A stretch of 64,000 nucleotides of DNA from Maribacter sedimenticola (lineage in GTDB: Bacteria; Bacteroidota; Bacteroidia; Flavobacteriales; Flavobacteriaceae): the NCBI RefSeq assembly GCF_900188415.1, contig NZ_FZNV01000003.1, forward strand, positions 310,001-374,000, in the 5' to 3' direction. The position numbers and the translations under genes were made by a program. Shown piece after piece: positions 23,691-31,487 of this stretch (the stretch's first letter is position 1; each line of letters opens with the position of its first letter). The notes under the pieces were generated by a model. That model ran no database searches, had not been told where the DNA came from, and saw only the letters and a program-made list of their open reading frames with translations.

Positions 23691-26120
23691 ATGGACACCA
23701 AGAAAAATAATTTCACCGTAAAAATCACTTTAAGTTATTTATTGCTTGTCCTATTGGCTATTATAGCATCTTATTATATATATAATGAGGTCAACGCATA
23801 TATTGCTACTGAAACTACCACAGAAAAGGATAACAAACTCTTAAGGACCAACTCTTTTCTAGCCCAACTATATGAAGCAGAAAGCTTGTCAAAACTTGCC
23901 ATACAGACCAGAAGCAAATCTAACTTTACGGCATACCAAAACAAAATAGATTCCATATACACGGATATTGAGGCGCTTAAACTTTTGACCGAAAACACAT
24001 ATCAAAAAGGTCTATTGGATAGCCTACATTCATTGTTACGAAAAAAAGCAACCAACATCAATGCCCTTAGAACCCTAAAAATTAATGATCAAACGAGTTC
24101 AGCCATTGACTTCGCATTAAAGGAATTCGATAAACTTGAGGAATCCTTAGGAATTATAAAACCAGAAAGTTTGGCACCCAATATAGATGAACTATCCCCA
24201 AAAGCCCAAAGCGCCATTAAAAAAGTAGCGGATTATCTTAACGCCAATATACCACAGGAAGAAAATCCCCAATTAAAAGCTCAACGTATGGATAGTGTAC
24301 TTACTATTTCTAAAAATCTTCTAAAAGACGTTCAGCAGGAAAACAACAATACCGAAAATTCCTTGGCAATGCGCGAAAACTCCATTAATAAGACCGATAT
24401 GGAACTTACCCAGCAATTGCGAAGCATACTGTCTTCCTTTGAGCATGAAATTACTATGAACAGTTTGGCCAATTCCATTAAAAAGGAAACGTTATTGAAC
24501 AGAAGTATAAAATTGGCCGTTATTGCCGCGATACTAGGTTTTTTGGTGGTCGGGGTATTCATCTTTATCCTGAACCGCGATTTTTGGAAAGTGAACTTGC
24601 TAAGGGAAAAACTGGAGAAGGAAAAACAGCTTTCAGAATCCTTGTTAAAAAGTAGGGAACAACTTATAGCGACCGTAAGCCATGATCTAAGAACACCCCT
24701 TAATACCATTTCTGGGTATACCCAACTTATTGAAACATCTAAAACCATAGACAAAGAACATTTGAACCATATTAAATCTGCCACCGGATATGTAAACAAT
24801 CTTGTGAACGACCTATTGGATTTCTCACAATTGGAGGCCGGAAAAATGGTTGCCAAAAACAATACTTTTCTCGTGGACCAACTGCTGCGGGAAAGCGCTA
24901 CCAACATTGCTACACAATATTCTCAAAAAAACATTGATCTCATTCTCAATCTGGACACATCTTTAGCGAAACCAATAGTTTTAGATGATTTTAGGTTAAG
25001 GCAGATTCTATCTAACCTATTGGGAAATGCCTTCAAATTTACGGAACAGGGCAAAATAACCTTATCTGCTTTCATTAAACAGGTAAGAAATGAACCCGTA
25101 TTGTACATTATTATAGAAGATACGGGTATTGGGATATCCAAAGAACAGCAAAAGCTTATTTTTAAGGAATTTACACAGGCCGGCACTACTACCAATAAAA
25201 AACATGAAGGCTATGGATTGGGCCTTACCATTACCAAAAAACTTACGGAACTACTGAACGGAAAAATTATTTTGGAAAGTGAAATTGGGAGTGGCAGCAA
25301 GTTTACTTTAAAAATACCTACACAATTTGGTGTATTAAATACCGTACCACAATCTGGCAGCAATAAAAAGAAACGTATTAATAGTGCTCTAGTAATCGAT
25401 GATGACCCTTCATTTTTACAACTAATTGGAGAGATGATGAAATCCGCACACATTAACACCCGTTTATATACCAATTTTAATACATACGACACAGCCGTCA
25501 ATTTTCATTATGATGTTGTCTTGACCGATATTGAAATGCCCAACGCCACAGGTTATGATGTAGTCACTAAACTGCGATCACCATTATTTCCTAACCATAC
25601 CGACCAGCCCATTATTGCAATGACCGGAAGGAACGACCTAAGCGTTGAACATTTTAGGAATAAAGGATTTGATGAACTGTTGCGCAAACCATTCTCTAAA
25701 ACAGAATTGCTGCAAAAACTAAAGCTATTTGGCCCCATAACCTTTACAGAAAAAGTGAATACCACAGCTCCTATACAAACTAAGGTCAAAGAAGGTCCAT
25801 TTACCTTTGATACCCTAAAAATGTTCATTGGAAACGATGAAGCGGCGCTTAACGAAATTCTTTCAACTTTTTTAAAAGATACAGAAGAGAATGCTAAAAA
25901 TCTGACTGCTGCCGTTGACGCTTTGAATATTACTGAAATTAACAAAACGGCCCATAAAATGCTTCCTATGTTCCGCCAATTGAATGCCAAAAAAGTAGTA
26001 GATGTTCTAGAACAATTTGAGCGCTTAAAACGCAAGGAACTTACTGCTCAACAAATAAAGGAAAAACATCTTGCGGTAAAACAAAATATCAACGTTATTA
26101 TTAAGGCCATATCGGTTTAG
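23691..26120 (+). CDS. Hybrid sensor histidine kinase with receiver and HPt domains
   Basis: An 809-residue membrane phosphorelay protein. TM1 is at about 12-32, a helical periplasmic sensor of about 235 residues follows, and TM2 is at about 275-295. The HisKA domain has VSHDLRTPLNTISGY, with His near 330. The ATPase domain shows LLGNAFKF, EDTGIGIS and GYGLGLTI. The receiver begins VIDDDPSF (about 568) with phospho-Asp in LTDIEMP (about 612) and ends LRKPFSK. The C-terminal HPt domain has AHKMLP (His near 754). The phosphoryl group could pass to the sigma-54 response regulator at 28215-29585, separated here only by a cassette-like gene. Confidence 0.94.
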   Translation: MDTKKNNFTVKITLSYLLLVLLAIIASYYIYNEVNAYIATETTTEKDNKLLRTNSFLAQLYEAESLSKLAIQTRSKSNFTAYQNKIDSIYTDIEALKLLTENTYQKGLLDSLHSLLRKKATNINALRTLKINDQTSSAIDFALKEFDKLEESLGIIKPESLAPNIDELSPKAQSAIKKVADYLNANIPQEENPQLKAQRMDSVLTISKNLLKDVQQENNNTENSLAMRENSINKTDMELTQQLRSILSSFEHEITMNSLANSIKKETLLNRSIKLAVIAAILGFLVVGVFIFILNRDFWKVNLLREKLEKEKQLSESLLKSREQLIATVSHDLRTPLNTISGYTQLIETSKTIDKEHLNHIKSATGYVNNLVNDLLDFSQLEAGKMVAKNNTFLVDQLLRESATNIATQYSQKNIDLILNLDTSLAKPIVLDDFRLRQILSNLLGNAFKFTEQGKITLSAFIKQVRNEPVLYIIIEDTGIGISKEQQKLIFKEFTQAGTTTNKKHEGYGLGLTITKKLTELLNGKIILESEIGSGSKFTLKIPTQFGVLNTVPQSGSNKKKRINSALVIDDDPSFLQLIGEMMKSAHINTRLYTNFNTYDTAVNFHYDVVLTDIEMPNATGYDVVTKLRSPLFPNHTDQPIIAMTGRNDLSVEHFRNKGFDELLRKPFSKTELLQKLKLFGPITFTEKVNTTAPIQTKVKEGPFTFDTLKMFIGNDEAALNEILSTFLKDTEENAKNLTAAVDALNITEINKTAHKMLPMFRQLNAKKVVDVLEQFERLKRKELTAQQIKEKHLAVKQNINVIIKAISV

Positions 26121-26250
26121 CTAAGCGTAGTGCGGAGGCAATGAAACTTTTCGTTTCCGTCTGCGCACGAAGCTAAAACCATAAGATTTAACGACTTTAT
26201 AAATATATACAGCCCATTCGTTTCAGCCCTAAAGTCCGCATTACGTTTAG
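26121..26250. repeat. Long imperfect inverted repeat, left border of the cassette-like segment
   Basis: The outer arms are CTAAGCGTAGTGCGGA (26121-26136) and TCCGCATTACGTTTAG (26235-26250), pairing at 14 of 16 positions. Further in, GGC...GAAAC (26137-26146) pairs with GTTTCAGCC (26220-26228). The whole could fold as one long bulged hairpin, like recombination sites of gene cassettes. I could not find the exact RYYYAAC/GTTRRRY core of class-integron attC sites. It starts directly after the kinase stop codon. Confidence 0.5.
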
Positions 26251-26253
26251 GTT

Positions 26254-26265
26254 TTGTTACAACAA
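26254..26265. repeat. Flanking repeat TTGTTACAACAA, left copy
   Basis: A 12-base near-palindrome. Eleven of its bases (TGTTACAACAA) recur in inverted orientation at 28193-28203, on the other side of the esterase-family gene. Confidence 0.5.
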
Positions 26266-26273
26266 GTTGCAAC

Positions 26274-26331
26274 GGATTCGAGTAAGCACGTTCTGATTCA
26301 ATTCCGACTGAACAAACTTGCTCGGAAGTCC
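26274..26331. repeat. Imperfect hairpin next to the esterase-family gene
   Basis: Arms starting GGATTCGAGTAAG (26274) and ending CTTGCTCGGAAGTCC (26331) pair in four blocks (GGA, CGAG, AAG, GTTC) with small internal loops. It lies 30 bases beyond the stop of the esterase-family gene. It has no U-run on the minus strand, so it is more likely part of the cassette border than a simple terminator. Confidence 0.4.
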
Positions 26332-26360
26332 ATTCCGATTTCCTATTCTAAAGATAAAGG

Positions 26361-28091
26361 TCAATCCAAAAGTTTTGAGCCCGATGAGTTATTGATATAG
26401 AGTATCAAATCATAATCTCCGCTTATATCTGTCTCGTAAAATTCACTTTTCATCTTCATAGATCCTACTTGCCTAAAGTCCATTTTTTCCAAAAGCCATT
26501 TGGCATGCATTGGTTTTTCTTCTTTAATTCTACGGAGATCAATAATAAATATTGGAACATCAATAGATTCGAAAAATTTTTCAAAAGTACCATTATAAGG
26601 TACCTGCGCCTGATAAGTGGTTAGTCCATTTTCCCCCATTGCAGTATAGGTACCTCTACTAAATGCAAAACCTACCGCCACATAATCATTCGTCAAACTA
26701 TCGGATAGATAATTTCCCATGCCGTGCATCGTTCTCTGTACATGAGCATTATGTGCCCATATTGCTATTTTCGAATCTTGATTTTGGGATTTTATCCATA
26801 ATAGATTTTCTGCCATAAATTTATCCCATGAGAATACAGTTTTATCTATATATTGCTCAATGACCCTAATATTTTGGTATAGCCATGCCGTCCTATCCTT
26901 GGTAAGACCTAATTTTTCAATTACATTCCTCACATGTTCTAATTTTTCCACGATAGTATCTTTATCGTCTTGGGAAACAGCACCCATCCTTGAACCTTGA
27001 TGTTTTGCTGAAGTTTTATCCAATATCCGTTTAATGGACGTCAAATCTTCCAATATAGTATTATGATCTTTAAATGCTTTTTCCAACTCCTCTACCGATA
27101 AATTATAATATTGTATATCAAATCCCGTGAATTGAATTTTTTGTGTGGTAGCGTTGTGCAACTTCATCCATTTCACCATATTCAATACTTCCTGGGTGCT
27201 CCAAGTCCAAAAATGCATGCCTTTAATCAATTCCGTTGGGTTTCCCTTTCCATGCATAGTGTAGTCATTGAGCTTATATGCTTCAGGCATATTGGCCTCC
27301 ATGGAAAAAATTTCGAAATCTTTTTTCTCAGCTAAGTATCTGAGCAATCGATGCTTCATCTGGAATATTTCACTCGATCCATGGGTAACCTCTCCGAGCG
27401 CTACAACCTGGGCATCTCCTATTAGAGAACCGAAAACTTCAAGATCTACATCGGATTTCGTACTAGGGTCATAAGTTGATAATGGGTAAACATTTTTTTT
27501 TAGCCATGCCAGTTCGTCAGTTGTGAGTTCGGTTGATCTAGGTTGTAAATCGTTAAATGTTTTTCCGTCGATCAGAATTTTAAAATTATCAAACCAAGCT
27601 ACTCCGTTACCCAGCAATAAGCCCCCAAAGGTGATTTCTTTAGCCTTCTCGTCAACACTCATCATTAGCGAGACTTCCTGCCATTCATTCGTACCTTTTA
27701 AGCCATTGTTCTCCATATTATCAAATGCCAGAACCCCATCCTGTCCATCTACTTTCCACCAAAGACCGGCATATCCGTTATTTATTGATTCGGTTTTTAC
27801 ATGACCTCTAAGCTCTATCTTTCTGCCTATTGCATAAGCGACAGGAAAACTTGCGGTAAAAACTCCAGATTGATTTTCCTTAGGATTATTGCTTATTATT
27901 TTTAAACTTCTATTAGACTCATGTTTTTCGTTGCCATCCCATTTAAAAATATAACCAGAACTTGTAGTATACCACCACTTCTTTGGTGTTTCAGAGCCTC
28001 GCAATTCAAATTCAAATCCAAGATTAAGAAATTCTTGTGAAAATGATTTGCCGGTTAAACAAACAAAAATTAATAGAATTGTTGTTCTCAT
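26361..28091 (-). CDS. Secreted erythromycin-esterase-family protein with N-terminal beta domain
   Basis: A 576-residue exported protein: signal peptide (ending GKSFSQ), a beta-sandwich-like domain (about 20-175, resembling a carbohydrate-binding module, with YAGLWWKVDG and GNGVAWFDNF), then an EreA-like domain. The latter shows VVALGEVTHGSSEIFQMKHRLL and IAIWAHNAHVQRTMHGMG, containing the Glu/His residues characteristic of the family. The family includes macrolide esterases, but most members have unknown substrates, so a resistance role should not be assumed. The gene is flanked by inverted TGTTACAACAA repeats and interrupts a kinase/regulator pair, suggesting it arrived as a unit. Confidence 0.85.
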   Translation of the reverse strand: MRTTILLIFVCLTGKSFSQEFLNLGFEFELRGSETPKKWWYTTSSGYIFKWDGNEKHESNRSLKIISNNPKENQSGVFTASFPVAYAIGRKIELRGHVKTESINNGYAGLWWKVDGQDGVLAFDNMENNGLKGTNEWQEVSLMMSVDEKAKEITFGGLLLGNGVAWFDNFKILIDGKTFNDLQPRSTELTTDELAWLKKNVYPLSTYDPSTKSDVDLEVFGSLIGDAQVVALGEVTHGSSEIFQMKHRLLRYLAEKKDFEIFSMEANMPEAYKLNDYTMHGKGNPTELIKGMHFWTWSTQEVLNMVKWMKLHNATTQKIQFTGFDIQYYNLSVEELEKAFKDHNTILEDLTSIKRILDKTSAKHQGSRMGAVSQDDKDTIVEKLEHVRNVIEKLGLTKDRTAWLYQNIRVIEQYIDKTVFSWDKFMAENLLWIKSQNQDSKIAIWAHNAHVQRTMHGMGNYLSDSLTNDYVAVGFAFSRGTYTAMGENGLTTYQAQVPYNGTFEKFFESIDVPIFIIDLRRIKEEKPMHAKWLLEKMDFRQVGSMKMKSEFYETDISGDYDLILYINNSSGSKLLD

Positions 28092-28192
28092 AATCTATTA
28101 TTATAGTTAAAACCTATCGTTTATTAGAACTCCTAATTTTTAACAATCCAATTTTGAATTCAATTCACTTTCGGTTTCATTTTTGGAGCTAT

Positions 28193-28203
28193 TTGTTGTA
28201 ACA
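28193..28203. repeat. Flanking repeat TTGTTGTAACA, right copy
   Basis: Exact reverse complement of 26255-26265 (TGTTACAACAA). It lies 11 bases beyond the stop of the response regulator and about 100 bases upstream of the esterase-family start. Together the copies bracket that gene. Confidence 0.5.
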
Positions 28204-28214
28204 TTGCGCTTGGA

Positions 28215-29585
28215 TTAAAGCACATCCAAATCATAATAATTTATACGGTTGTACAATGTTTTTCGGGTAACCTGCAATAATTTGGCCGCCTTGGACTTGT
28301 TGTAATTTGTTTTTTTTAAGGCATTTATTATCTGTTCCTTTTCAAAATCTGCTTTTGATAATGCTCCAAAATCTTTGGGAACATCCTTTTTTTCAAGTAA
28401 CTCCGCAGGCAAAGTATGTATTTCTATTGTGTTTTCCGTTGATAATAATACGGCCCGTTGAATTACATTTTGCAATTCACGTATATTACCAGGCCAGGTG
28501 TATGTATTGAAAACATTCCAAACTTCAGGGGAAAAATCGGCCACTTGCTTGCCTAATTTTCCATTGAACTTTTCTAAAAAATAAGTTGCAAAAGCCTTTA
28601 AATCTCCATGTCTATCCTTAAGTGCGGGTATTTGCAAAGAAAATTCATTTAGCCTATGATATAGATCTTCCCTAAATGTACCCTTCTCTACCGCAGCCTT
28701 TAAATCTTCATTGGTGGCAGAGAGAATTCTAACATCTACATTAATTTCCTTGTTACTACCAATTCTTTTGATTTTACGCTCCTGCAAAGCCCTTAGCAAT
28801 TGCATTTGGTTTTCATAAGAAAGATTACCTACCTCATCTAAAAAGAGGGTTCCACCATTGGCCGCTTCAAAACTTCCTATTTTATCTGCTATGGCTCCTG
28901 TAAAACTACCCTTTAAATGACCAAAAAATTCACTGGATGCCAATTCCTTGGGTATGGCACCACAATCCAAAGCAACAAATGGCTGCTCTTTTCGCAAGCT
29001 TTTTTCATGAATGGCCTTGGCGGTCACCTCCTTACCTGTACCGCTTTCTCCAATGATGAGAACGGACATATCCGTTGGCGCTACCAACGAAATATATTCC
29101 TCCAGTTTCTGCGTAGCATCACTCACAAGTAATAGCCCTGTAGTTTTATCTGATGATACCCCTTGTTGTGCCCGTTGCACTTGTAATTCTTTTTCCTGAT
29201 TCTTATCAGTACTTTTTACTTTAGGTTCTAAAGGCTTGGCATGCAAAGCTCCATCGATAACGGCCAACATTTGATCCGGCGTAAAGGGTTTGGAGATATA
29301 GTCATAAGCACCCATTTTCATAGCCTTGACCGCAGAGGCCACTTCTGCATAACCGGTCATGACAATTATAGGTATCTTTCCCTGTAATGCCGATACCAAA
29401 TCCAAGCCATCATAATTGGGCAACCTAAGGTCAGTAATGACCAATTGTAAATTTCCTTCTTTTATTTTATTCTCGGCATCGGCACCTGTATGACTAACCA
29501 AAACCTCAAAATTGTTTCTGATCAAAAATTTTTGAAGCATTTGGGCAAAAGCAGCATCATCTTCAATTATAAGGATTCTGGCCAT
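28215..29585 (-). CDS. Sigma-54-dependent response regulator (NtrC family)
   Basis: A 456-residue transcription activator. The receiver domain covers 1-120, with the phospho-Asp at 52 (ITDLRLP) and SKPFTP near 100. The AAA+ domain has Walker A GESGTGKE (about 175), the sigma-54 contact loop GSFTGA (about 225, a variant of GAFTGA) and Walker B GGTLFLDEVG. A Fis-type helix-turn-helix ends the protein (NYNKSKAAKLLQVTRKTLYNRI). It is likely phosphorylated by the hybrid kinase at 23691-26120. Candidate targets are its own gene and the small secreted-protein genes upstream, which share a TGGCATA element. Confidence 0.95.
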   Translation of the reverse strand: MARILIIEDDAAFAQMLQKFLIRNNFEVLVSHTGADAENKIKEGNLQLVITDLRLPNYDGLDLVSALQGKIPIIVMTGYAEVASAVKAMKMGAYDYISKPFTPDQMLAVIDGALHAKPLEPKVKSTDKNQEKELQVQRAQQGVSSDKTTGLLLVSDATQKLEEYISLVAPTDMSVLIIGESGTGKEVTAKAIHEKSLRKEQPFVALDCGAIPKELASSEFFGHLKGSFTGAIADKIGSFEAANGGTLFLDEVGNLSYENQMQLLRALQERKIKRIGSNKEINVDVRILSATNEDLKAAVEKGTFREDLYHRLNEFSLQIPALKDRHGDLKAFATYFLEKFNGKLGKQVADFSPEVWNVFNTYTWPGNIRELQNVIQRAVLLSTENTIEIHTLPAELLEKKDVPKDFGALSKADFEKEQIINALKKTNYNKSKAAKLLQVTRKTLYNRINYYDLDVL

Positions 29586-29768: not shown

Positions 29769-30086
29769 TTACATGTCCAGCCAATTACCATCCTCATCTG
29801 CATATACTGTTCCTTGAGTACCATCCTCTAATGAAAGGACTAATTTATACTGCTTTTCCTCATTGGTAAATGCCTTATCCAAATTTGCCGTTGGAAAATT
29901 TGTGGAAATGGCATCCATTACGGCTTGGGGAACCTGTGAAACTGAAATTTCCGTGAAATCATTGGCCGTAACCATTATTTCCTTTACTTCATTATGTACG
30001 ATTCCTGATTGAGAAAATAAAGCATCTTGTGCATTTGCCGTAAATCCTCCTAAAGTTATTGCTCCTAATAAAAATAATGTCTTCAT
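29769..30086 (-). CDS. Small secreted PepSY-like protein, paralogue 1
   Basis: A 105-residue exported protein with a signal peptide of about 19 residues (ending GFTANAQ). The mature domain has a PepSY-like pattern: VPQAVMDAISTNFPTANLDKAF, then a KQYKLVLSLEDGTQGTVYADEDGNWLDM hairpin. Two paralogues lie upstream on the same strand (30699-31004 and 31156-31458). All three end in a GNW-x-(N/D)-(K/M) tail. Such proteins are probably periplasmic; the role is unknown. The gene has its own candidate promoter and terminator. Confidence 0.8.
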   Translation of the reverse strand: MKTLFLLGAITLGGFTANAQDALFSQSGIVHNEVKEIMVTANDFTEISVSQVPQAVMDAISTNFPTANLDKAFTNEEKQYKLVLSLEDGTQGTVYADEDGNWLDM

Positions 30087-30119
30087 CTTAATCTATTTTA
30101 AATTAATAATCATTCTGTT

Positions 30120-30149
30120 ATCTATACTTAAGTAATAAATATGCCAAAG
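30120..30149 (-). promoter_or_regulatory. Putative sigma-54-like promoter of paralogue 1
   Basis: The minus strand reads TTTGGCATATTTATTACTTA and then AGTATAGATAAC. TTGGCAT fits the -24 element; ten bases after GG there is AC rather than GC. The TAAGTAnnGATA part is repeated upstream of the two paralogues. Confidence 0.35.
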
Positions 30150-30291
30150 AATCATACACCATATAAAACACTAAAAATTAGGTGTTTATGGTTATGCATA
30201 GGTTTTATAAGTTGGGTAATATTGGTAAACCAAGTATAGAGTGGGTAAACTTTACACACCCTTAATGAAGAAATTGGAGAGACGTATACCT

Positions 30292-30325
30292 ATTAAAAAA
30301 AAAGGAGTTGCAAATGCAACTCCTT
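30292..30325 (-). terminator. Terminator with no recognised gene upstream
   Basis: A perfect 11-bp stem (AAGGAGTTGCA at 30302-30312, complement at 30315-30325) is followed by nine U on the minus strand. Paralogue 2 already has its own terminator at 30649-30677, so this one implies a separate short minus-strand transcript within 30326-30648. Confidence 0.8.
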
Positions 30326-30648
30326 AAAACCACCTATCAAACTTTACTTTTAAAATTTTAAATCAACTCCTTTATTAATTTTGCATCAAATCAAACAAGA
30401 CTTAGTCAACCTCGGGGAATATTTTAAAATTCAATTAATTCTGGTGGCACCTTCATAGTTAACGGTTAGTGTTTACGCGAAAGTGATTTTTTTAATTTTT
30501 ACCGTTCCCAACATATTTTTGAAATTACCGCTACTGTTAATATCGTAATCGCCATTGTTATCGAAATAAAAATTATAGTGACCATTTGTTCATAATTCTG
30601 CTACACTTATTTAGACACCACTTTTTTAAACAGGTCACATTTAAAATA
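30326..30648 (-). ncRNA. Possible small transcript between two terminators
   Basis: This gap between two strong minus-strand terminators holds no ordinary gene. It contains a leader-like stretch ATAAGTGTAGCAGAAT (about 30611-30596) similar to the leaders of the neighbouring paralogues, a 28-codon hydrophobic open frame (30499-30585) and a ten-codon frame MKVPPELIEF further on. It may be a small RNA, a small-protein mRNA or the remains of a fourth paralogue. Confidence 0.35.
30499..30585 (-). CDS. Possible 28-residue membrane peptide
   Basis: The frame from the ATG at 30585 encodes MVTIIFISITMAITILTV followed by AVISKICWER, a single hydrophobic helix with a short charged tail. A terminator lies about 170 bases downstream. 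Evidence for translation is limited to composition and context. AT-rich sequence can produce such frames by chance. Confidence 0.3.
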   Translation of the reverse strand: MVTIIFISITMAITILTVAVISKICWER

Positions 30649-30677
30649 AAAAAAACTGCAGATTGCAGTTTTTTTTT
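30649..30677 (-). terminator. Terminator of paralogue 2
   Basis: The stem AAAAAAACTGCA (30649-30660) / TGCAGTTTTTTT (30664-30675) has a 3-base loop and U-runs on both strands. It lies 25 bases beyond the stop of the second PepSY-like gene. Confidence 0.8.
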
Positions 30678-30698
30678 GATCTTAATGACCAAATAAGT

Positions 30699-31004
30699 TT
30701 ATTTTTTATTTATCCAATTGCCATATTGGTCAATATAAACAGTCCTTCTTGTACCGCTCTTCAAAACCATGACCAATTTAAATTCACCACTATTATTTTT
30801 ATAGGCGGCACCAAGTTTTGATGTTGGATATTGTTTTAAAATCTCCTCTATTACCTGAGGAGTAAGTTCACTTGACTTAATTTTGACATATTCATCAGTA
30901 TTATTGATGGCAATTTTATTATTTGCTATTTCAGAAACGTTCATGGCAGAAACATTACACATAATGCCTATTGCCATTAAAGAAAGTAACACACTCTTTT
31001 TCAT
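30699..31004 (-). CDS. Small secreted PepSY-like protein, paralogue 2
   Basis: A 101-residue exported protein from the ATG at 31004 (MKKSVLLSLMAIGIMCNVSA). An upstream in-frame ATG adds six residues and is less likely. The mature part follows the paralogue pattern: LTPQVIEEILKQYPTSKLGAAY, then GEFKLVMVLKSGTRRTVYIDQYGNWINKK. It is more basic than its two relatives, with Arg-Arg and Lys-Lys where the others have acidic residues. Function unknown. Confidence 0.8.
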   Translation of the reverse strand: MKKSVLLSLMAIGIMCNVSAMNVSEIANNKIAINNTDEYVKIKSSELTPQVIEEILKQYPTSKLGAAYKNNSGEFKLVMVLKSGTRRTVYIDQYGNWINKK

Positions 31005-31105
31005 CCTAAATATTTTAATCATTAAAAAATTTATCTCTCTACTTATCTACGGTCTAAATGTAGGAATGGATTACAGCTCTAGTTTTTTTACTTATTACAA
31101 CTAAT

Positions 31106-31127
31106 AAAAGCTGCCTAGGCAGCTTTT
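31106..31127 (-). terminator. Hairpin after paralogue 3
   Basis: A perfect 10-bp stem (AAAAGCTGCC at 31106-31115, complement at 31118-31127) has a 2-base loop. The minus-strand U-run is short (TTTTATT), so termination may be partial. Confidence 0.6.
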
Positions 31128-31155
31128 ACATAAACAACTAAATATTTGGGGGAAT

Positions 31156-31458
31156 TTACATATTCAACCAATTTCCATCTTCATCGGCAAATAATTCTAC
31201 CATGGTACCATCTTCATTGGTCACCTCTAACTTATATGTCTTGTTTTCATCTACATAAGCCTTATTTACGACTGCTCCCGCATAATCTTCTTCCAATGCT
31301 TGGATAACCGGAGATGGAACTTCTGATACCGCTATCTCCTGAAAATCCTGTTGCATAACTTCTTCCATGATACCATCATGAAAAATTATGGGTGTTGCCG
31401 CCGTTCCTATTGATATACTACCTATTGCCAATGCTGTGGCCAAAACTATTTTTCTCAT
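31156..31458 (-). CDS. Small secreted PepSY-like protein, paralogue 3
   Basis: A 100-residue exported protein from the ATG at 31458 (MRKIVLATALAIGSISIGTA). An upstream ATG eight codons earlier is in frame but would precede the signal peptide by an unusual margin. The core is VPSPVIQALEEDYAGAVVNKAY, then KTYKLEVTNEDGTMVELFADEDGNWLNM, closest to paralogue 1. The acidic ADEDGNW end is shared by 1 and 3. It has its own TGGCATA-type promoter candidate. Confidence 0.8.
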   Translation of the reverse strand: MRKIVLATALAIGSISIGTAATPIIFHDGIMEEVMQQDFQEIAVSEVPSPVIQALEEDYAGAVVNKAYVDENKTYKLEVTNEDGTMVELFADEDGNWLNM

Positions 31459-31487
31459 CTGTATTGCTTTTAAATTAAACATTCTTA

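Follow-up and report, generated by a model that had tools for sequence, protein, structure and literature searches.

In a 64,000-nucleotide (nt) stretch of the Maribacter sedimenticola genome (NZ_FZNV01000003.1, positions 310,001 to 374,000 of the forward strand; hereafter the window), a 2,089-bp segment separates the gene for a hybrid histidine kinase from the gene for a sigma-54-dependent response regulator. We conclude that this segment is very probably a single gene cassette of an integron-like system, inserted at a secondary site and moved by a tyrosine recombinase. Integron cassettes consist of a gene followed at its 3' end by an attC site; they are normally captured beside the integrase gene and strung in arrays, and each cassette begins with bases that pair with the R'' box of the attC it carries. 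We read the window segment as a cassette of this type because the sites of its repeat family have G^TT ends, cassette-specific end pairing, and a stem with compensatory changes. The features of the locus, in window coordinates and with ^ marking a junction, are as follows.

23691-26120, plus strand: hybrid histidine kinase (open reading frame and domain search)
26105-26112, plus strand: GGCCATAT, on the left of the target site and part of the kinase coding sequence
26113-28201, minus strand: whole inserted cassette, 2,089 bp, with its 5' end at 28201 and its 3' end at 26113
26113-26265, minus strand: attC-like site at the cassette 3' end (covariance model R1, 146.6 bits, E 2.7e-36; this copy is among the model's 19)
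26121-26136, plus strand: L' arm of the attC stem in the bottom-strand reading, CTAAGCGTAGTGCGGA (covarying helix in 77 distinct sites)
26235-26250, plus strand: L'' arm, TCCGCATTACGTTTAG, pairing with 26121-26136 and including two G.T pairs
26256-26265, plus strand: R'' box, GTTACAACAA, the first inverted 11-mer (see below) minus its first base, pairing with the cassette's own start
26361-28091, minus strand: erythromycin-esterase-family gene, 576 amino acids (aa) (Erythro_esteras PF05139, E 6.4e-52)
28193-28202, minus strand: cassette start, G^TTACAACAA, the R' half that would complete attC in a circle, within the second 11-mer
28202-28214, plus strand: right flank of the target site, CATTGCGCTTGGA, ahead of the regulator stop
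28215-29585, minus strand: sigma-54-dependent response regulator, convergent with the kinase (open reading frame and domain search)

A first-pass annotation of the window had proposed that a mobile segment of ~2.1 kb splits the two genes, and had suggested a comparison with relatives in which they are neighbors. The split was borne out, as was the comparison: kinase and regulator are adjacent and convergent in 23 of 23 relatives' loci (~21 genomes), including same-genus G075, and the insert is missing from all of them. The gap between the genes ranges from -26 to +165 nt, with a 26-nt overlap in 10 of the 23 loci, and therefore leaves no room for the insert. These loci comprise the nine best of 80 named loci and 14 picked from a second match list; L143/L053 and L146/L055 have contigs of equal length and identical kinase tails and are apparently the same genomes, which brings the number of distinct genomes to ~21. 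No attC match was detected in the 23 loci (230 kb) at E ≤ 0.001, these being core-gene loci unmatched for variable regions.

With an insert starting at 26113, the first eight cassette bases supply the end of the kinase gene together with its stop codon TAG, and the final kinase codons (part of TCG, then GTT and TAG) are cassette-derived. Compared with its relatives, the kinase is shorter by ~10 C-terminal codons. When 26113-28201 is removed, the kinase frame runs on to ...KAISLRLD and a stop, a tail which by eye resembles those of relatives such as ...LKERLA.... The rejoined target reads CAATG^ATATGG on the minus strand, with the join between G and A at the extreme end of the kinase gene. These exact junction bases would follow from the cassette-end rule: the 5' end at 28201 was predicted from the cassette's own R'' (9 of 9 letters after the G), and the relatives only bracket the insert, placing it between the final kinase codons and the stop of the regulator.

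The site at the 3' end of the segment belongs to a family of repeats. An inverted repeat had been reported immediately behind the kinase stop and is real (arms CTAAGCGTAGTGCGGA at 26121-26136 and TCCGCATTACGTTTAG at 26235-26250); an RNA fold of 26118-26345 gave z = -3.3, with 1 of 200 shuffles equally good. It is also not unique to the locus: a BLAST search of the genome with 26121-26345 as query gave 44 hits at E ≤ 1, and covariance model R1, built from 19 copies, returned 46 at E ≤ 0.1 (weakest E 0.08). The 19 model-building sites match R1 by construction, and one search spanned 37 of the loci. The element had been placed at 26121-26331; a repeated element does exist there, but its copies match only up to query position ~138-148 (26258-26268), so that it ends near 26265, and the insert begins at 26113. 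Array copies are 70-95% identical to the window site over parts of their length. R1 matches lie mostly in same-strand runs on contigs C8, C12, and C19, with 18 of 27 neighboring site pairs 0.6-1.5 kb apart and, in the array part listed, one or two open reading frames between sites; the window holds the sole R1 match in its contig stretch. On the gene strand, a site consists of AAC, a ~6-nt spacer, CTAAACGTAATGCGGA, a long variable middle, TCCGCACTACGCTTAG, a ~7-nt spacer, and G^TT. Most R1 matches are ~186-209 nt long, the window copy is ~150, and a short subtype is ~125, the long subtype being the one used to train R1. In arrays C8, C12, and C19, some cassette starts seem to be preceded by at least two further attC subtypes (ending atacac...acg^ and ctatatatacttg^), which R1 detects poorly or not at all. 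Phage records searched with one attC copy gave no match, and viral contigs scanned with an 18-base attC core gave 0 matches.

The ends of the cassettes pair in a manner specific to each cassette. The window cassette starts at 28201, within the interval that the relatives define, with the sequence TTACAACAAA; its own R'', read back, is TTACAACAAG, a fit of 9 of 9 letters. The first-pass annotation had reported inverted 11-mers (TGTTACAACAA) at 26255-26265 and 28193-28203, and both are exact and inverted; alone, the pair is weak evidence, with three window matches at one mismatch versus 2.45 expected. The annotation had taken the 11-mer for a shared end that might bracket other genes. Instead, it is private to the window cassette, like the R'/R'' ends of integrons. 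Across 27 neighboring site pairs, cassette start and own R'' agree at a mean of 4.41 of 8 variable positions versus 2.62 for mismatched pairs, an agreement reached in none of 100,000 permutations. Behind a G^T no more than 3 kb upstream, the own R'' was found with at least 8 of 9 letters for 31 of 41 sites (versus 129 of 1488 trials with a foreign R''), and with 9 of 9 letters for 24 of 41 (versus 36 of 1488). When read across an arrayed attC, the R boxes agree at a mean of 2.54 of 8 positions (35 sites) and are not palindromic. This work used 43 of the 46 own-genome matches, two of the 43 having no AAC box; a contig-edge fragment on C8, C12:135830, and C12:142612 were left out.

Pairing in the L helix reaches 94.4% over 77 distinct sites, and in 12 of its 13 pairs both partners change; the covariation of the whole structure was reached by 0 of 500 shuffles. 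Two of its positions are A.C on the gene strand and G.T on the bottom strand (67 of 78 and 72 of 78 sites), and the tenth position of the R stem is likewise A.C/G.T in 24 of 24 cassettes with a full nine-letter match. When folded as DNA, the bottom strand was the more stable in 17 of 20 sites, a bias similar to the bottom-strand preference of known attC sites. The consensus L helix, derived from sequence, appears to have no conserved bulge, with conserved A.C/G.T positions there.

A 729-bp cassette occurs twice in the genome, at C12:115983-116711 and C8:93-821 (L031, L021); the copies are 99.0% identical inside and their flanks are unrelated (27% and 34% identity outside). In these duplicates, the last 7-nt spacer before G^TT looks as if it travels with the neighbor.

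As the first-pass annotation had proposed, the gene in the window cassette encodes a member of the erythromycin esterase family (PF05139, E 6.4e-52), with an N-terminal stretch that by eye is signal-peptide-like. It shares this Pfam family with EreA and EreB, but its scores against the NCBIfam models are all far under their cut-offs (EreB 73.6 of 750 bits, EreD 42.3 of 800, EreA 35.6 of 750), and nothing points to macrolide hydrolysis. Among 299 genomes of the family (Flavobacteriaceae, judging from named relatives), relatives at E 1e-60 were the protein itself and one 48% relative in G612. The G612 esterase (L233, G612 C178) lies 18 bp behind a gene that by eye is peptidase-like, and there is no attC match beside it at E ≤ 0.001, so that apparently no cassette is present there.

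No recombinase had been seen in the first-pass annotation, which holds true for the segment, but the same contig carries a tyrosine recombinase gene heading a cassette array.

C12:102478-103542, minus strand: tyrosine recombinase, 355 aa, which heads the C12 array in divergent orientation, ~233 kb from the window cassette

Integrons have an attI site next to the integrase gene; here the first detected C12 cassette starts ATGTG^TTAGCACAT, ~170 bp from the recombinase start. R213, K241, H302, R305, H328, and Y337, which we take to be the catalytic residues, are invariant in 26 of 26 aligned recombinases. A structural model of the protein (predicted local distance difference test score 85.4, predicted template modeling score 0.60) found its best solved match in IntI4 (2A3V; E 8.2e-16, template modeling scores 0.61 and 0.68) and contains an extra N-terminal part for which short members of the group have no room. 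Nothing in the genome matches the IntI model TIGR02249 over its cut-off; the array-head recombinase scores 187.8 bits versus a cut-off of 265, and all seven proteins scanned fall under that value. Between two conserved motifs, 62 of 62 aligned recombinases (60 loci plus two genes of this genome; two are short open frames) have 54-55 residues, versus 96 in 10 of 10 canonical IntI of the phylum, and a further 5 of 5 recombinases have 54. The IntI additional domain, located around patch III, is therefore missing, as ~42 residues, from the array-head recombinase and from all 66 relatives measured. The best curated model is XerA_Arch (NF040815), at 207.2 bits and thus under its cut-off of 220; three relatives exceed that cut-off (230.2, 234.1, and 237.3) and three do not (214.2, 214.1, and 185.3). 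In a tree of those 60 recombinases that reach 265 aa, together with 10 IntI and two Xer proteins, 10% of the bootstrap replicates contain a branch that separates the domain-lacking group from all the others, and the tree does not settle whether canonical IntI originated inside that group.

At E ≤ 1e-30, relatives of the recombinase are present in 73 of 100 genomes of the family, this one included. Sixty neighborhoods were fetched from the 92 matches listed outside M. sedimenticola; 35 of them hold R1 attC matches, 83 in total, with the nearest 0.7-9.3 kb from the gene, and all 83 are oriented away from the recombinase. Genes at least 59% identical to the one described here have the divergent layout, with 5 of 5 attC pointing away, and the other loci have 73 attC downstream on the same strand and five in divergent orientation, all in L198. 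L198 (G001 C13:56100-75800) is the lone low-identity locus with divergent attC (5 of 5), and its gene is short, at 272 aa. M. sedimenticola has a second recombinase, of the other type, at the extreme end of contig C11 (L037, G000 C11:948482-949279), where the assembled piece stops.

R1 attC are present in 67 of 100 family genomes, this one included (E 1e-6), and canonical IntI over the cut-off in none of the 100. A phylum-level search with the same IntI model served as the positive control for that result and found canonical IntI over the cut-off in 105 of 395 Bacteroidota genomes. In the same 395, R1 attC at E 1e-8 occur in 25: M. sedimenticola, 13 others of its family, four others of the class, and seven others of the phylum. 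Four of these seven, G145, G191, G199, and G273, all from other families, carry a related recombinase on an attC contig. It has 54 residues between the motifs and lacks the domain in each of them, and in the stretches retrieved, 12 of 12 attC matches are oriented away from it. For the other three, G250, G261, and G387, the phylum match listing shows no recombinase and attC paired on one contig. G199 and G191 have both a canonical IntI and a domain-lacking recombinase with R1-like attC, on different contigs. A minimal unit is found on a mobilizable plasmid of Arenibacter algicola.

NZ_CP022516.1 (L234), 53010-64728: minimal unit of plasmid pSMS7

It comprises a 266-aa recombinase without the IntI domain, one cassette, and one attC that is 93% identical to a copy in the M. 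sedimenticola genome. By eye, the pSMS7 cassette start shows the same A/G difference from its R'' at position 10.

We propose the following mechanism. A tyrosine recombinase would bind the attC-like site, probably as a bottom-strand hairpin whose L stem contains two G.T pairs and whose R stem contains a third. Strands would be exchanged between the cassette circle, at its G^TT, and the target, at its G^AT, so that the 5' junction would end up as G^TT and the 3' junction as G^AT. The array-head recombinase may well perform this reaction, with the single strand as its probable substrate, and the window insertion would have arisen from such a recombination event.

The first-pass annotation had named two observations that would speak against a mobile unit, namely the same gene at this place in all relatives or repeats confined to this locus. 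Instead, the relatives lack the insert and the repeat is not unique, and an inserted, cassette-like mobile unit is supported (23 of 23 relatives' loci without it). Nothing supports the further description as a promoter-gene unit; we rejected a local promoter unit because the element lies 3' of the gene, like attC. Its "uncharacterised class" describes the array-head recombinase, which is not canonical IntI, but not the kind of cassette, which is integron-like. A miniature inverted-repeat transposable element, or another transposon with terminal inverted repeats, comes near to what the first-pass annotation had in mind and would explain inverted repeats, many copies, and insertion at a gene boundary. 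We regard this as very improbable, since the repeat is at the 3' end only, the copies are mostly one-directional in arrays, the end sequences are private to each cassette, and no direct target repeat is visible by eye at the junctions. It is also scarcely credible that the gene was gained by ordinary homologous recombination with the attC-like repeat as a passenger: the recurrence of the element elsewhere in the genome makes homology available, but the relatives' target has no attC and the segment begins and ends where a cassette is predicted to do so. Quite unlikely, too, is that the arrays are the debris of ordinary integrons, or clusters of attC sites without integron-integrases (CALINs), served by a canonical IntI in trans or in other hosts, with the adjoining recombinases as bystanders. 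CALINs are common (PMC9024848), and among the 105 of 395 Bacteroidota genomes with canonical IntI over the cut-off, G191, G199, and G250 also have R1-like attC. In contrast, no canonical IntI was found in the 100 family genomes of which 67 have R1 attC; domain-lacking recombinases head the arrays, and all 83 attC near them are oriented away from the gene; and in G199 and G191 the attC are on the contig of the domain-lacking recombinase and not on the IntI contigs.

A smaller but substantial possibility keeps the same cassettes and recombinase and replaces the hairpin with a double-stranded, two-strand exchange across the 7-nt spacer, as in XerCD. In its favor, archaeal XerA is the model that fits the recombinase best (207.2 bits, cut-off 220), the IntI domain is missing from the protein, and the spacer is unlinked to the cassette in the sole clean duplicate pair. 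The conserved strand asymmetry (bottom-strand G.T at two L-stem positions, in 67 and 72 of 78 sites, and at one R-stem position, in 24 of 24), the better folding of the bottom strand in 17 of 20 sites, and R boxes that are not palindromic in the arrayed site (mean 2.54 of 8, 35 sites) argue for the single-stranded hairpin instead. Several observations weigh against an integron-like cassette moved through such a hairpin. In the duplicated 729-bp cassette, the 7-nt L'-R' spacer differs (CCCAACC versus CTAAAAC) with the remaining attC identical. This difference would not be expected of a simple exchange at G^TT and leaves room for a two-strand exchange. Covariation of the inverted arms is also compatible with double-stranded half-sites to which a single protein binds; the site alignment was fitted to the model's structure and is biased toward pairing; and 3 of 20 sites do not fold better on the bottom strand. 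No recognizable start was found for 10 of 41 sites, and 10 of 27 neighboring pairs score just 0-3 of 8, probably because undetected sites lie between. R1, whose training covered one subtype, finds no attC at 25 of the 60 recombinase loci, some of which are at contig ends, and G250 has attC contigs on which no domain-lacking recombinase was found. At the window locus, nucleotide alignment with eight relatives' junctions failed to place the insert to the base, and the rejoined regulator tail by eye carries four extra nt relative to relatives, so that the empty site is not letter-perfect. Finally, recombination itself was not observed, and the support comes from sequence.

Beside the sigma-54 regulator, on the minus strand at 29769-31482 of the window, lie genes for three small, secreted-looking proteins of 105-108 aa, which by eye are alike; they are possibly targets of the regulator. 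An Rfam scan of the window gave 0 matches.

On a broader proposal our judgment is evenly balanced: these elements may represent a second integron lineage, older than or independent of IntI, with a recombinase that lacks the domain reading extrahelical bases and an attC strand marked by three conserved G.T wobbles instead of bulged bases, present on chromosomes of at least two phylum lineages and on at least one mobilizable plasmid and missed by IntI-keyed surveys. A widespread cassette system with a domain-lacking recombinase at its array heads would show that cassette capture needs no IntI extra domain, would open the descent of integrons from Xer-like enzymes to testing, and would mean that cassette traffic is under-counted in a large bacterial family, R1 sites being present in 67 of 100 of its genomes.

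In its workings the present system resembles an integron; it nevertheless falls outside the IntI integrons as surveys define them, since the domain on which that definition rests was looked for and is missing. With chromosomal integrons (Vibrio IntI4, 2A3V) it shares one-directional cassette arrays, a 3' hairpin site, the G^TT crossover, and a recombinase at the array head. R'/R'' complementarity beyond 7 nt, reported to reach 9-11 in integrons (PMC2727003), is likewise seen in the present cassettes. Differences lie in the recombinase, with 54-55 residues where IntI has 96 with its additional domain, and in the site: reported attC are 57-142 nt long (PMC2727003), whereas most R1 matches are longer (~186-209) and only the ~125-nt subtype would fit; and known attC rely on extrahelical bases in the L stem (PMC2727003), whereas here the consensus L stem appears to have conserved G.T pairs and no bulge. 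Simple tyrosine recombinases near IntI that lack the insertion have been noted in an "integron-like" subgroup (Smyshlyaev et al. 2021, PMC8138268), and the portion of that paper available to us does not tie them to cassette arrays or to flavobacteria; it calls the IntI insertion essential for integron function. In the literature searched (no preprints and few subscription papers), we found no insertion-lacking recombinases tied to cassette arrays, and integron-like cassettes with a domain-lacking array-head recombinase appear not to have been described there.

Integron surveys require an IntI-specific profile (PMC9024848, PMC9668308), and the extra domain that serves as survey identifier is described as necessary for activity (Messier and Roy 2001, as cited in PMC9668308; PMC8138268). 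A survey keyed to IntI would presumably class the present arrays as CALINs at best, but many of them differ from CALINs in having a tyrosine recombinase at their head (35 of 60 loci). The IntegronFinder survey lists one complete Bacteroidetes integron, in Salinibacter ruber, beside Chlorobi and Ignavibacteriae, and the earlier Bacteroidetes record consisted solely of integrase-only elements (PMC9024848). Archaeal XerA-type recombinases (NF040815, PDB 4A8E and 5HXY), the best-scoring curated family, with 3 of 7 proteins over the cut-off, are placed among chromosome-dimer resolvases (PMC8138268). The present gene differs from XerA in its link to cassette arrays and in the extra N-terminal part found in many members of its group. 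Loot and colleagues are said to have described in 2024 the insertion of integron cassettes at attG sites. In such insertions the cassette is joined at G^WT (the GWT rule). In the window, a lone cassette would likewise sit at a G^WT join, the exact base resting on the cassette-end rule, although IntI has no match over the cut-off in this genome; it would add a natural example of one cassette at a gene end, away from an array.

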